DNA of 41,007 nucleotides from an uncultured Candidatus Saccharibacteria bacterium (GTDB lineage Bacteria > Patescibacteriota > Saccharimonadia > Saccharimonadales > Saccharimonadaceae): NCBI GenBank assembly GCA_947165975.1, contig CAMVCL010000008.1, positions 1-41,007 on the forward strand. The letters run 5' to 3'. Positions 8,907 to 34,926 of this stretch are shown one piece after another; position 1 is the stretch's first letter; each line of letters begins with the position of its first letter. Both the position numbers and the translations under genes were made by a program. Under the pieces are notes generated by a model. The model had not been told where the DNA came from, made no database searches, and saw only the letters and a list, made by a program, of their open reading frames with translations.

Positions 8907-8993
8907 TGGTGCCCGCTAAGAGATTTGAACTCTTACAGTATTGCTACCACTAGCACCTGAAGCTAGCGCGTCTACCAATTCCGCCAAGCGGGC
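8907..8993 (-). tRNA. tRNA-Leu (CAG)
   Basis: 87-nt class II tRNA with encoded CCA (8907-8909 on the complement). The acceptor GCCCGCT pairs with AGCGGGC and A is the discriminator. D-loop GGTAGAC, anticodon loop TTCAGGT (anticodon CAG), a long variable arm and T-loop GTTCAAATC all fit tRNA-Leu. Confidence 0.95.
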
Positions 8994-22883: not shown

Positions 22884-25352
22884 ATGCAGGAAGAATTTAG
22901 TGAAATAATGAATAGACTGTCTGAAAACGCAAGGTTTGCGCTACAGAAGGCAGACTATTATAGTAAAAGATACAACAATGGTTATATGGGTACGGAACAC
23001 CTGCTACTAGGAATAATGTCGATGGATAATTCGACGGGTGCAAAAATGTTGCGTGAGGAAGGTGCAACGACTGATGAAATTGAAAAAGCACTTAATAAGG
23101 TAGCGGTGGAAGTGCCGGGCTCTGATATGGCAATGATGTCGCTTTCAGAGGCGGTAATTTTGACTTTGAGAATGGCTCAAAACTATACTCGTGAACAGGG
23201 TTTGACAGTTATTGGGACAGAGCATGTTCTGTATGCTTTACTTTCGCAACCGAATTCGCGAGCTTCTTTGATTCTGACTGGTTTGAAGGTTGATACTGAA
23301 AAATTGATGGATGATATTGAAAGGTTGGTTGAAGAACAGACCAAAGATGAAAGATTAAAAGCCGAAAAGGCTAAATATTTAAAGAAGACTCCATTGCGTT
23401 TTTTGAATCGTTATGGAAAGGATTTAACTGAAGAAGCCAAGCAAGGTCACCTTGACACAGTGATTGGACGCGAAAATGAGATTGAGCGTGTCGTGACAGT
23501 TCTTTCGCGGCGTACTAAGTCTAATCCAGTATTGATTGGTGAGGCAGGCGTTGGTAAGACAGCCATTGTAGAAGGATTGGCAACTAGGATTGCTAATAAT
23601 GAAGTGCCGGGTAATTTAATTGGAAAACACATTTATCAGGTCGATTTATCTTCGTTGGTGGCAGGGACTAAATTTCGTGGCGAATTCGAGGAGAGAATTA
23701 AGGGTGTAATCGATGAAGCTACTGGTGATGATTCAATACTACTATTCATTGATGAAATTCATCTACTTTCTGGAGCGGGATCATCTGAAGGATCAATGGA
23801 TGCAGCAAATATCTTGAAGCCAGCTTTGGCACGTAATTCAATTAATCTGATTGGCGCAACCACACTGGATGAATATCGTAAATCAATCGAAAAAGACAAA
23901 GCTTTGAGTCGTCGTTTTCAGACTGTAATGGTTGAAGAACCGTCTGCTGCAGTAACTTTAAGAATCCTAAAAGGTATTAAAGAACACTACGAAAAACATC
24001 ATGGTGTAGTTATCCCAGATGAGATGCTTGAGGTTGCAATTACAATGGGGCAACGCTACATTAACGATAGATTTATGCCTGACAAGGTGATTGACATCAT
24101 TGATGAAGCGTCAGCAATTTGTAAAGTGGCTGCAGATAAAAAAGGTGGTGGTAAGTATAAAAAAATGAAGATTGAAAAATCTACATTAGAAAATAAGATT
24201 ACCGAAGCTGCAGAAAATGAAAATTATGAAAAAGCGGCTGAGTATAAGACTCAATTAGCTAAATTAGAACAGGAAATTAAAGCTCTGGAAAAGGCTGGAG
24301 TAAAGGAGACCGAGAACCCGACATTGACGGAGGAAAACTTGGCTACAGCAGTTTCTCTGAAGACTGGGATTCCGGTTTCTAAGGTACATGGTTCCGAAAT
24401 GAAAATGTTGCTGGATTTAGAAAATCATATTAAAGAGTCGATTATCGGTCAAGATGAAGCTGTTAATGCTGTAGCGAAAGCAATTCGTCGAGGACGTAGC
24501 GGAATTGCGGATCCTAGACGTCCGATTGGCTCGTTCTTGTTTATGGGGCCGACTGGTGTTGGTAAGACTGAATTAGCGCGTGTTATCGCGCGTGAAGTGT
24601 TTGGTGGTGAAAATGCCTTAGTTAAGATTGATATGTCGGAATTTGGCGAAAAGCATAATGTCTCTCGTTTGGTGGGTGCGCCAGCTGGATATATCGGTTA
24701 TGATGATGGTGGTAAATTGACTGAAGCAGTGCGCCGTAAGCCTTATTCGGTGATTTTGTTTGATGAAATTGAAAAAGCGCATCCGGATGTTTTTAATTTA
24801 TTGCTTCAGATTTTGGAAGATGGCGTATTGACGGATGGACAAGGTAATAAGATTAAGTTTAATAATACGATCGTAATTTTGACTTCGAATTTGGGCTCGG
24901 CGGATATGTATCGTGAGTCAGAATTAGGTTTTACAGCAAAAACTACTAAAGATAAGAAAGCATTAGAGCAGGAATATGAGGAAAACAAGTCTTATGCGAT
25001 GAAGGCTTTAAAGAAAGTGATGCGCCCAGAGTTGATTAATCGTTTGGATAATATCTTAGTGTTTCATGCGCTCACTCGTAAGAATGTGGAGAAGATTTTT
25101 GACAATTTGATTAATGATTTGAAAAAGCGTTTAGCGACAAAAGGTATTGGTTTGAAGATTGACGCTGAAGCTAAGGATTATTTAATCAAAGAAGGGTATG
25201 ATCCTAAAAATGGAGCGAGACCTTTGCGTCGTAAGATTGAAGACGAAGTCGAATCATTATTGTCAGAAGATATTATTTCGGAGAAATTGCAAAAGGGTGA
25301 TATTCCAGTTTTGAAATTGGTAAATAAGAAACTTAAATTAGTAAAGGAGTAA
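22884..25352 (+). CDS. clpC: Clp protease ATPase subunit ClpC
   Basis: Double-ring AAA+ unfoldase that feeds ClpP. Counting from ATG 22884 (822 aa), a Clp-N repeat domain covers about 10-150, the first Walker A GEAGVGKT is at 219-226 with LLFIDEIH downstream, a UVR-like coiled region spans about 425-465, the second Walker A GPTGVGKT is at 555-562, and a Clp D2-small domain ends the protein. The frame opens at 22851 inside the CIRCE element, upstream of the -10, so that start is excluded. ATG 22884 is 9 nt after the -10 and lacks a Shine-Dalgarno; ATG 22908 is a fallback. clpP follows one base after the stop. The operator predicts heat-shock regulation by HrcA. Confidence 0.97.
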
Positions 25353-25353
25353 T

Positions 25354-25935
25354 ATGAAAGATTATTTAGTGCCTACAGTAGTAGAAGAAACTAATAAAGG
25401 CGAACGGGCTTATGATATTTATTCTAGATTGCTTAATGATCGGATTGTTTTTCTTGGCGAAGATGTTAATTCACATACGGCGAATCTAGTAATCGCGCAA
25501 CTTTTATATTTAGCACATGAAGATTCCAAAAAACCAATCAAGCTCTATATTAATTCCCCTGGTGGATCTGTATATGATGGATTGGCTATTATTGATACGA
25601 TGAATTATATTGAACCAGATGTGGAAACAATTGGTATTGGTTTACAAGCATCGATGGGGGCGATGTTGTTGTCGTCTGGCGCTAAGGGAAAAAGATATTG
25701 TTTGCCGAATTCTCGTATAATGATCCATCAACCGTCTTCTGGCACTGAGGGTAAGATTACTGATCAGGAGATAATGTTGCGCGAAGGAGTATTCCTAAAG
25801 AAGCGTTTAGCGGAAATCTTTGCAAAAAATACTGGTAAGGAATTGAAGCAAGTGGAGAAAGATATGGATCGTGATAATTGGATGAGCGCAGAAGAAGCTA
25901 AAAGTTATGGGATTATTGATGAAATAATCAAATAG
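25354..25935 (+). CDS. clpP: ATP-dependent Clp protease proteolytic subunit
   Basis: Serine peptidase that forms the chamber served by ClpC. It is 193 aa. The catalytic triad is S100 (QASMGAM), H125 (MIHQPS) and D174 (MDRDNWMS). [14 protein letters not shown] forms the oxyanion and substrate strand. The Shine-Dalgarno AAAGGAG lies inside the clpC 3' end, and the gap is one base, so clpC and clpP form one operon. A long palindrome follows. Confidence 0.98.
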
Positions 25936-25952
25936 AGTTGATGAATCAATGA

Positions 25953-25987
25953 AAAATTATACCATATATAATATATGGTATAATTTT
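25953..25987. repeat. 35-bp perfect palindrome: clpP terminator and rnhA promoter
   Basis: 17-bp perfect arms (25953-25969 and 25971-25987) around one central base. Each arm carries an extended -10, TGG-TATAAT: plus strand TATAAT at 25979-25984, minus strand at 25956-25961. As RNA it folds into a long A/U-rich hairpin ending in UUUU, which could terminate clpP. The plus -10 is 6 nt before the rnhA ATG at 25991. Confidence 0.85.
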
Positions 25988-25990
25988 GAT

Positions 25991-26425
25991 ATGAAAATAC
26001 TATGGACTGATGGTAGTGCTTCTCCGAATCCTGGGCCTGGGGGATATGCGGTGATTGAAGTTGACAATGATGTTGCCACGCCGGTTGTTTTAGGCCAAGA
26101 AAAAGACACGACCAATATTCGTATGGAAGGTTCCGCAATGATTGCGGCGATTAAGTATGCAAGTGGAGAAAGCTGTGAAATTCATTCAGATTCGGAATTT
26201 TGGATTAATGTGTTAACTAAATGGGCTTCAGCTTGGCAGGCGAACGGATGGAAAAAAAAGACTGGTGAAATTAAGAATTTGGATCTAGTGCAAGAATTGT
26301 ATGAATTGTATAGTAAAAATGATGTGAAGTTAGTGTGGGAAAAAGGTCATGACGGAATTGCTTATAACGAAATGGCTGACGAATGGGCAAATCGAGCAAG
26401 AAAAGGCGAGGAACTGCGATCATAA
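25991..26425 (+). CDS. rnhA: Ribonuclease HI
   Basis: Cuts the RNA strand of RNA-DNA hybrids. 144 aa. The acidic active site is complete: D7 (WTDGS), E46 (RMEGSA), D67 (HSDSEF) and D130 (EMADEWA). H120 in KGHDG is the usual catalytic-loop histidine. The frame opens at 25949, inside the palindrome; ATG 25991 is 6 nt after TATAAT and gives the family-standard N-terminus, so the mRNA is predicted leaderless. It has no obvious functional link to its neighbours. Confidence 0.95.
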   Translation: MKILWTDGSASPNPGPGGYAVIEVDNDVATPVVLGQEKDTTNIRMEGSAMIAAIKYASGESCEIHSDSEFWINVLTKWASAWQANGWKKKTGEIKNLDLVQELYELYSKNDVKLVWEKGHDGIAYNEMADEWANRARKGEELRS

Positions 26426-26452
26426 TAGAAGCTAGTTACAGTAGTAAAAATA

Positions 26453-26461
26453 TGGTATAAT
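26453..26461 (+). promoter_or_regulatory. tyrS extended -10 promoter
   Basis: TGG-TATAAT (TATAAT at 26456-26461). The leader is about 29 nt and ends in an AGGAAGG Shine-Dalgarno before ATG 26497. Too short for a T-box riboswitch. Confidence 0.65.
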
Positions 26462-26496
26462 ATAAAAATACAAAAACTAATAGAAAGGAAGGAATA

Positions 26497-27747
26497 ATGA
26501 AACTTTCGGAGGAGCTCATTTATCGTGGCTTTAAGGCCGAAACAACTATTGAAAATCCAGAGGATTTGGATACGCGAGAGAACAAGACTTTCTATTGGGG
26601 CGCTGATCCGAGCGCAGATTCTTTGACGATCGGAAATCTAGCGGCCGCTATGATGTGTGCCTGTTTTGTGAAGCATGGATATAAGCCATATCTTTTAGTA
26701 GGTGGCGCGACTGGTCAGATTGGCGATCCTAAAGATAATGCTGAGCGCGAACTAAAAGCGCTTGATGAAGTAGAGCATAACAAAAAATGCATCAAGGAGC
26801 AAATGGAACGCGTGATTAGCCCCGTAGCTAAAGATGGTATTTCGGTTACAATGGTGGATAATTATGACTGGTTTAAGAATATTAAATATTTGGATTTCCT
26901 GCGTGAAGTAGGTAAGGCTTTTTCGATGACACAGCTACTTGATCGTCAATTTGTGCAAAATCGAATTGGCGAGGGGAGTTCTGGTATTTCTTATGCAGAA
27001 TTTTCATATACTTTGATTCAGGGATATGATTTTTTGCATCTATATCGTGAACATAATGTTGCAATGCAGCTTTGTGGAGCCGACCAGTTTGGCAACTGTA
27101 CTTCTGGCGTACATTTGATTAAGAGGCTTGAAAATGGTTCGGCTGACGTGTGGTCTACGCCACTGATTATTGATCCGGTAACAGGCCGTAAGTTTGGCAA
27201 ATCTGAAGGAAATGCAGTATGGTTAGCTGCCACTGATAATGGCTCAGGCAACTATACTTCAATCTTTGATTTTTATCAGTTTTGGATGAATCAGCCGGAT
27301 GAGTCGGTAGAGTATTTGATTAAAATCTATACATTCCTATCTAAAGAAGAAATAGAGAGTATCTTAGCTGAACATCGCAAAGCTCCAGAGAGAAGGATTG
27401 CGCAGAAAGCTCTTGCGCGCGGTGCAACTGAAGTGGTACATGGCAAGAAGGCGGCTGATGCAGTAGAAGCTTTAACGGAAAAGCTATTTGATTCGAAGAC
27501 CGATTTCAAAGAATTCACCGAAGATGAAATAATTGAATTTGCTGAATATTTACCAACTGTCAAAAAAGGTATTAAATTAGTAGACGCTTTAGTCGAGAAT
27601 GGCTTGGCAGAATCAAAGAAAAAAGCTCGTGAATTTATGACTCAGGGAGCGATTACGATTAATGGCGAAAAAATCTCAGAAGATGTTTCCATTAAACAAA
27701 CCGCGATCATTAAGAAGGGTAAGAATAAATTCTTGATTATAAAATGA
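26497..27747 (+). CDS. tyrS: Tyrosyl-tRNA synthetase
   Basis: Class I synthetase, 416 aa. The HIGH box is the variant TIGN (44-47) within GADPSADSLTIGN; the KMSKS box is KFGKS (232-236). A C-terminal S4 RNA-binding domain is visible (LVDALVENGLAESKKKAREF...GAITING). First gene of a likely operon: the methyltransferase start ATGA overlaps the tyrS stop by 4 nt, and rpmA follows. Confidence 0.96.
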   Translation: MKLSEELIYRGFKAETTIENPEDLDTRENKTFYWGADPSADSLTIGNLAAAMMCACFVKHGYKPYLLVGGATGQIGDPKDNAERELKALDEVEHNKKCIKEQMERVISPVAKDGISVTMVDNYDWFKNIKYLDFLREVGKAFSMTQLLDRQFVQNRIGEGSSGISYAEFSYTLIQGYDFLHLYREHNVAMQLCGADQFGNCTSGVHLIKRLENGSADVWSTPLIIDPVTGRKFGKSEGNAVWLAATDNGSGNYTSIFDFYQFWMNQPDESVEYLIKIYTFLSKEEIESILAEHRKAPERRIAQKALARGATEVVHGKKAADAVEALTEKLFDSKTDFKEFTEDEIIEFAEYLPTVKKGIKLVDALVENGLAESKKKAREFMTQGAITINGEKISEDVSIKQTAIIKKGKNKFLIIK

Positions 27748-29252: not shown

Positions 29253-29278
29253 TAACCCCGTAATGGGGTTATTTTTTT
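29253..29278 (+). terminator. tyrS-rpmA operon terminator
   Basis: TAACCCC (29253-29259), loop GTAAT, GGGGTTA (29265-29271), then seven T. The next promoter begins 2 nt later. Confidence 0.9.
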
Positions 29279-29279
29279 G

Positions 29280-29288
29280 TGGTATAAT
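29280..29288 (+). promoter_or_regulatory. Leaderless extended -10 promoter of the 29295 gene
   Basis: TGG-TATAAT (TATAAT at 29283-29288), TTTGTT, ATG at 29295. Same terminator-promoter-start layout as at 14091-14136. Confidence 0.8.
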
Positions 29289-29294
29289 TTTGTT

Positions 29295-30341
29295 ATGGCT
29301 AAAAATAAACGCCTTGGTTTCTCAGTTCGAACAATTTTGATTGTTTTGACGATTATTCTAGTTTGTTATGTAGTTTATCAGAACTGGGCTGACATTTTAG
29401 AGACTCTTAAACATTTACATGAAGCAAATGGTTTTATTTTAGTGCTTTTGATTCCGGAACAATTATTTATGTATTTTGCCTGTGGACAGATCTTTTTTTC
29501 TTATTTGAGACATCGAAAGAACGTTAAAAAGTTTTCTGATAAAGAGGTCTTAAAAATTTCTACAGAATTAAACTTTGTAAATCATGCTGTTCCGGCTGGT
29601 GGAATTGGGGGTTTGGCATTTTTGACTTATAGGATGGCGCCATTTGGTGTAACTGCAGGGCAAGCGAGTTTTTTATACGTTTTTCGCTATGCAATTACCA
29701 CTGTAATTAATTATGCTCAGGCTTTAGTTGCGATTTTAGTGTTATTAACACTAAACATGATTCCGCCTGAAGCTTATTGGATTATTCCGGTAGCTCTTTT
29801 AATGAATGCTGGTGTGTTGGGGTTTTTAGGCGTAGTGATTTATATAGCTAGTAATAAAACACGAATTGATTTTTGTTCTAAAACACTCTCACGACTACTT
29901 AACTCTTTCGTTAAGATAATTACATTTGGATATAAAAAGAAAATTATGAATGATACGAAGATCGGCACTTATTTTGTAGATATCCATGAAAGTGTAAAAA
30001 TTGCAAAAGAGAATAAACAATCTTTGAAAGGCCCAATTTTTTGGGGTTTTGTCTATAGCTTTTTAGAGGTAGGAACTTATTGGTTGGTGGCGATTTCGCT
30101 GGGTCGTCCAGAGTTGTTGCCGTACATTATGATTGGCGAAGCAATTGGTTCGGTATTTGACGGTATTGTGCCATATGGATTATATGAACTAGGTATGGCG
30201 GGCGTAATGATTGCTCTTGGCGTTGATTTTCCGACCGCAACAATTATTACCGTGATGACACGTGTGATTACTCTACTTTTCACAATTGCTTCCGGTTCAA
30301 TACCATATTATGATGCAATTAAGGAGAAGGATGAAAGATAG
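29295..30341 (+). CDS. Flippase-like integral membrane protein (LPG synthase TM-domain/UPF0104 family)
   Basis: 348 aa with about 8 hydrophobic segments and no soluble domain. The NHAVPAGGIGGLAFLTYRM segment and the FDGIVPYGLYELGMAGVMIALGV segment are typical of the lysylphosphatidylglycerol-synthase membrane-domain family, which includes lipid flippase-like proteins. The C-terminal aminoacyl-transferase domain of MprF is absent. ATG 29295 is chosen over an upstream in-frame start at 29277, which precedes the -10. xseA overlaps its 3' end by 11 nt. The precise substrate is unknown. Confidence 0.82.
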   Translation: MAKNKRLGFSVRTILIVLTIILVCYVVYQNWADILETLKHLHEANGFILVLLIPEQLFMYFACGQIFFSYLRHRKNVKKFSDKEVLKISTELNFVNHAVPAGGIGGLAFLTYRMAPFGVTAGQASFLYVFRYAITTVINYAQALVAILVLLTLNMIPPEAYWIIPVALLMNAGVLGFLGVVIYIASNKTRIDFCSKTLSRLLNSFVKIITFGYKKKIMNDTKIGTYFVDIHESVKIAKENKQSLKGPIFWGFVYSFLEVGTYWLVAISLGRPELLPYIMIGEAIGSVFDGIVPYGLYELGMAGVMIALGVDFPTATIITVMTRVITLLFTIASGSIPYYDAIKEKDER

Positions 30342-34883: not shown

Positions 34884-34886
34884 TTG

Positions 34887-34920
34887 ATCAAAAAACCTCC
34901 CTGATGGGAGGTTTTTTGAT
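34887..34920. terminator. Bidirectional terminator between ppa and the 34927 gene
   Basis: Perfect 15-bp stem: ATCAAAAAACCTCCC (34887-34901), loop TGAT, GGGAGGTTTTTTGAT (34906-34920). Serves both converging genes. Confidence 0.95.
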
Positions 34921-34926
34921 GAAGTT

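Follow-up and report, generated by a model that had tools for sequence, protein, structure and literature searches.

A perfect palindrome between clpP and rnhA in a Saccharibacteria genome as a candidate fused terminator and leaderless promoter

Can the bases that end one bacterial message also start the next? This question is raised by a perfect palindrome lying in the gap between the codirectional genes clpP and rnhA of an uncultured Candidatus Saccharibacteria bacterium, for which an earlier sequence-only reading had proposed three jobs at once. Here we report an analysis of this locus within its window, by which we mean the whole 41,007-nucleotide stretch of DNA under study. The window is one of the 31 contigs that make up a genome of 882,197 bases. 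The upstream gene clpP (Pfam CLP_protease; 25354-25935, plus strand), with its stop codon at 25933-25935, is followed by a plus-strand spacer at 25936-25952 whose sequence varies among the palindrome-bearing relatives, then by the palindrome, and finally by rnhA (Pfam RNase_H; 25991-26425, plus strand), predicted to start leaderless at the ATG at 25991. The nearest RnhA relatives among the matches listed are Saccharibacteria assemblies, many of them from the gut of sheep, goats and other ruminants. An RnhA relative is present in 41 of the 60 relatives, yet in 7 of the 25 genera searched. The only Rfam match in the window is a tRNA at 8910-8993, and a search of a phage collection gave no match.

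The palindrome occupies positions 25953-25987 and reads AAAATTATACCATATAT-A-ATATATGGTATAATTTT, with two 17-bp arms that are 100% complementary around a single base. No perfect inverted repeat in the window (gap 0-10) is longer; in 100 dinucleotide shuffles of the window the longest such repeat ranged from 8 to 12, against 17 observed, which bears out the 35-bp perfect palindrome that had been read from the sequence. The left arm, AAAATTATACCATATAT (25953-25969, minus strand), would form the 5' strand of a putative hairpin in plus-strand RNA, and the right arm, ATATATGGTATAATTTT (25971-25987, plus strand), its 3' strand, while also carrying the putative extended -10 element of rnhA. The folding energy of the RNA is about -17 kcal/mol on either strand, compared with a shuffled mean of -5.6. 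Both strands of the palindrome contain TGGTATAAT, at 25976-25984 on the plus strand and at 25956-25964 on the minus strand, the latter copy constituting a possible antisense promoter in the left arm; the window as a whole holds 8 copies of this motif versus a shuffle mean of 0.55.

A perfect palindrome over a -10 element is a classic site for a dimeric regulator, and the palindrome had been suggested to bind one; it would then be an operator, for a repressor or an activator, covering the rnhA -10. However, the own genome contains a single ATTATACCA-N(0-30)-TGGTATAAT pair, the palindrome itself, rather than several sites, and among relatives the promoter motif and its complement are what stays invariant, with variation at the centre of the palindrome. 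The suggestion thus found no support, and we regard a dimeric operator as very improbable. A wider version of the pattern occurs at three distinct places in the genome, the palindrome, C6:6400-6426 and C2:3157-3181; C6:6400-6426 (L003), a second near match, was rejected because it reads as a plain promoter-like TATATGATATAAT ahead of an ATG and lacks the full left arm.

The evidence for a promoter in the right arm comes from rnhA orthologues. A TATAAT element preceded by TGG, without a consensus -35, lies at 25979-25984 (plus strand) as a putative leaderless rnhA promoter, and the ATG at 25991 begins six bases past it; the intervening TTTGAT (25985-25990, plus strand) forms the spacer from the -10 to the start codon, and its T run is the putative terminator tail. 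For comparison, rnhA upstream regions were drawn from the RnhA matches listed, including 80 further fetched stretches, duplicates were removed, and a -10 element was scored when at least five of the six letters of TATAAT were found 5-8 nt before the start. Such an element is present in at least 85 of the 133 distinct rnhA upstream regions among the matches listed, a lower bound because the start codon may be wrongly placed in a few of the fetched stretches, and its distance from the start codon is mostly 6 (68 regions) or 7 (15 regions). The remaining 48 upstream regions fail the rule, several of them showing a Shine-Dalgarno-like sequence. A promoter scan found no -35/-10 pair at the palindrome's rnhA promoter, which would therefore be of the extended -10 type. 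The comparison supports the prediction that the rnhA promoter is leaderless and conserved, palindrome present or absent, and in this respect it agrees with the sequence-only reading.

To what, then, does the left arm owe its presence? clpP stands immediately before rnhA in 29 distinct junctions, and the palindrome occurs in 7 of them, namely those of the window, L006, L036, L060, L061, L066 and L092. All 29 junctions were scored for a hairpin with a T tail, under a rule that allowed the tail to overlap up to five stem pairs. None of the 16 junctions with gaps of at most 25 nt has such a structure; most show a -10 element abutting the clpP stop, and L086 and L321 show a Shine-Dalgarno-like sequence. 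Among the 13 junctions with gaps of at least 48 nt, all but L273 pass, the 12 comprising the seven palindromes and five other hairpins (that of L081 weak), although the split between long and short gaps is partly built in because a hairpin hardly fits into a short gap. Judged by this comparison, clpP-rnhA gaps with room appear to hold a terminator-like hairpin (12/13). On the minus strand, a hairpin with a tail is found in two of the seven palindromes, that of the window and, weakly, that of L066.

The seven palindromic junctions share more than their gene order. All seven have the same left-arm core, AATTATACCAT, with TGG and TATAAT intact in every left arm, while identity at four-fold sites of clpP and rnhA among the same species is 31-59%. 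In plus-strand RNA, 103 of 104 stem cells are paired, 13 of them as G-U, and one is unpaired; the 13 G-U pairs would be A-C mismatches on the minus strand. Covariation of the arms across relatives, which had been put forward as a check, is not significant against 500 shuffles: its score was reached by 36 of them and the two-sided pair count by 303. A TTT directly after the -10 is present in 7/7 palindromic junctions versus 4/78 other rnhA promoters among the matches listed and 7/107 unselected non-palindromic leaderless promoters, these being raw counts uncorrected for the relatedness of the seven. The two motifs are 10-12 nt apart in all seven, compared with 5 of 114 other mirrored sites in the genus, and at least five pairs beyond the motifs are formed in all seven, compared with 12 of those 114. 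What comparison of the sequences demonstrates is a conserved promoter, hairpin potential kept in seven species and a linked T tract.

Conservation in close relatives, named beforehand as part of a refuting test, gave a divided answer: the palindrome is kept in seven species and missing from others of the same gene order, a patchy distribution. In the best ClpP plus RnhA tree (26 rows, weakly resolved) the seven do not form one clade and four or more changes are required to explain the palindrome, while the well-supported branches force just one, so that a single origin of the palindrome with later losses is a possible reading of the tree. Since template switching can copy a sequence into an inverted copy, the left arm might instead be a functionless by-product of mutation, an inverted copy of a fixed promoter arm. 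Patchiness is consistent with such an origin, as are a tandem left-arm copy in L066 and a separate codirectional palindrome before the methionyl-tRNA synthetase gene of L237. The latter (L237:1501-1529) reads ATTATACCATACT-GAA-AGTATGGTATAAT, precedes a leaderless gene and has no T tail, indicating that arms of this kind need not come with terminator features. A mutational accident does not account well for a left-arm core that stays identical over seven species whose four-fold sites have diverged, for the inner-stem G-U pairs kept in L066 and L092 despite an imperfect DNA palindrome, or for the linked T tract, and we consider it rather unlikely. In L066 the left arm stands twice in tandem upstream of rnhA, as a 14-base unit AAATTATACCATGC, an arrangement that would give two antisense -10 elements.

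The explanation we favour, with somewhat better than even confidence, is that terminator and promoter are fused where clpP ends: the 3' arm and T tract of an AU-rich hairpin would double as the -10 element and spacer of rnhA. In RNA transcribed from clpP, the arms would form about 14-16 pairs to give an AU-rich hairpin with a short U-rich stretch behind it, and together these would end the clpP transcript, or trim and protect it. In DNA, the right arm would serve as the extended -10 element of the leaderless rnhA promoter and the T-rich stretch as its spacer, with rnhA RNA beginning at the gene's ATG or close by; transcription fired leftward by the left arm may be a by-product. The constancy of the left arm would reflect its need to pair with the right arm, which is held fixed by the promoter, and the same bases would probably help to end clpP RNA and to start rnhA RNA. 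Against this fusion it must be said that the constancy of the left arm fits an antisense promoter too.

Termination at the palindrome itself is the part of this proposal that we infer. A stable RNA hairpin (-17 kcal/mol) stands shortly past the clpP stop codon, as in an intrinsic terminator, and TTT follows the -10 in 7/7 palindromic junctions, but the same bases also pair with the left arm. The UUUU tail noted earlier does exist (25984-25987); it lies inside the right arm, however, and so overlaps the base of the stem, and beyond the full stem GAT alone precedes the rnhA start codon in the window. Instead of being GC-rich, the stem contains two G-C pairs, and a canonical terminator scan of 25300-26600 (threshold of at least 3 G-C pairs and 5 T in 8) found none. 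The claim of a clpP terminator draws strength from the junction comparison and the T tract while failing the canonical scan, and the palindrome may work like an intrinsic terminator without being filed as a canonical one.

Intrinsic terminators, including two-way ones with an upstream A tract, resemble the palindrome in having a hairpin and a T-rich stretch just past a stop codon. According to PMC12207403, intrinsic terminators have a stem of at least 4 and a loop of 3-13, limits within which the hairpin of the palindrome falls, and upstream A tracts are linked to two-way terminators. The palindrome departs from this in that the A tract of the window is replaced by GG in L006, L036, L060 and L061. 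The palindrome further differs from intrinsic terminators in its AU-rich stem with two G-C pairs, in a tail that overlaps the stem and in a 3' arm that is also a -10 element. A different arrangement is seen at the clpP-rnhA junctions of L047 and L051, where another perfect palindrome, ACTATATATAATATATAGT, follows the clpP stop, and past it come a larger hairpin that has a T run, then a promoter with a Shine-Dalgarno-like sequence.

The chief competitor to the fused element is a two-way promoter, in which antisense transcription into clpP is the reason why the left arm is kept, and the hairpin arises incidentally from two extended -10 elements that face apart. This possibility, which we hold to be fairly unlikely, takes its strength from the rest of the genus. 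The mirrored pair ATTATACCA-N(0-30)-TGGTATAAT is present in 88 of 174 genomes, compared with 3 of 174 for the opposite arrangement. A script-based, crude scan classified the 121 mirrored-pair sites listed, 114 of them other than clpP-rnhA; 83 of these 114 are flanked on each side by a leaderless ORF, a tRNA or an ORF no more than 70 nt away, as would be expected of a motif that works in both directions, and in the other 31 such a signal is missing on one or both sides. Spacings cover 0-30 nt, with 15 and 24 nt commonest. Outward-facing extended -10 pairs are found mostly between divergent leaderless genes or between a gene and a tRNA. From these patterns TGGTATAAT very probably functions as a promoter whichever strand it is on, so an antisense start in the left arm is possible, and the intact TGG and TATAAT of all seven left arms agree with it.

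At the junction itself the two-way promoter fares less well. There is no leftward gene at clpP-rnhA, the left arm is missing from 22 of the 29 distinct junctions, and both the T tract and the narrow 10-12 nt spacing are left unexplained. Towards the 3' end of clpP, third codon positions show no clear excess of conservation in the palindromic species (0.59 versus 0.50-0.65 elsewhere), the final clpP bin comprising 21 comparisons, which is too small. The proposed antisense promoter into clpP is made possible by the mirrored pairs that serve divergent genes elsewhere in the genus, yet nothing at this junction points to it in particular. The full threefold role, in which one 35-bp element ends clpP RNA, starts rnhA RNA and fires antisense into clpP, strikes us as unlikely; if true, the choice of polymerase between the arms would tie Clp protease output to RNase H output.

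Hairpins that overlap leaderless promoters also occur at divergent promoters (24 of 63 with at least 8 pairs), because the motif pair is itself palindromic; the set is biased, many of its loci having been fetched for the motif, and it serves for examples only. A search beyond this junction for mirrored -10 pairs that have a T tail found them in 84 of 174 genomes, and among the 30 loci listed, two are clpP-rnhA palindromes (L360 and L372), five have leaderless ORFs on both sides and about nine have a tRNA gene alongside, by coordinates. The palindrome shares its ATTATACCA...TGGTATAAT core with these divergent leaderless promoter pairs of the genus and differs from them in setting: the divergent pairs mostly lie between genes or tRNAs and are spaced 0-30 nt apart, while clpP and rnhA are codirectional and their motifs are 10-12 nt apart. 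In E. coli, a single -10 element is shared by the two directions of a bidirectional promoter, with starts mostly 18 and also 10 or 23 bp apart, as described in PMC12825309. Compared with that description, the symmetry of the palindrome could likewise permit polymerase to start both ways, but it has two separate -10 elements, with estimated starts about 42 bp apart.

Among the papers listed in the library searched, judged by titles and abstract openings, none on promoters (including leaderless ones) or terminators of Saccharibacteria or the candidate phyla radiation describes such an element, and none on overlapping or embedded promoters and terminators does. The fused terminator and promoter is probably a case of genome compaction assembled from known parts. 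If true, a reduced genome would have compressed its signals until the bases that end one message also start the next, and AU-rich terminators in Saccharibacteria could slip past standard terminator scans. Mirrored extended -10 elements would, if the reading of the genus is true, be a simple sequence code for its divergent leaderless promoters.

The window itself offers an unfused counterpart. At 29254-29295, a GC-rich terminator, AACCCC...GGGGTT followed by T7, is succeeded a few bases further on by the leaderless promoter TGGTATAAT and an ATG, so that here too a terminator and the leaderless promoter of the next gene fit within about 45 bp. At that site the stem and T run precede the -10, whereas in the palindrome the stem, tail and promoter share bases. 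A near-perfect inverted repeat at 34884-34923, AAAAAACCTCCC...GGGAGGTTTTTT, looks like an ordinary two-way terminator.
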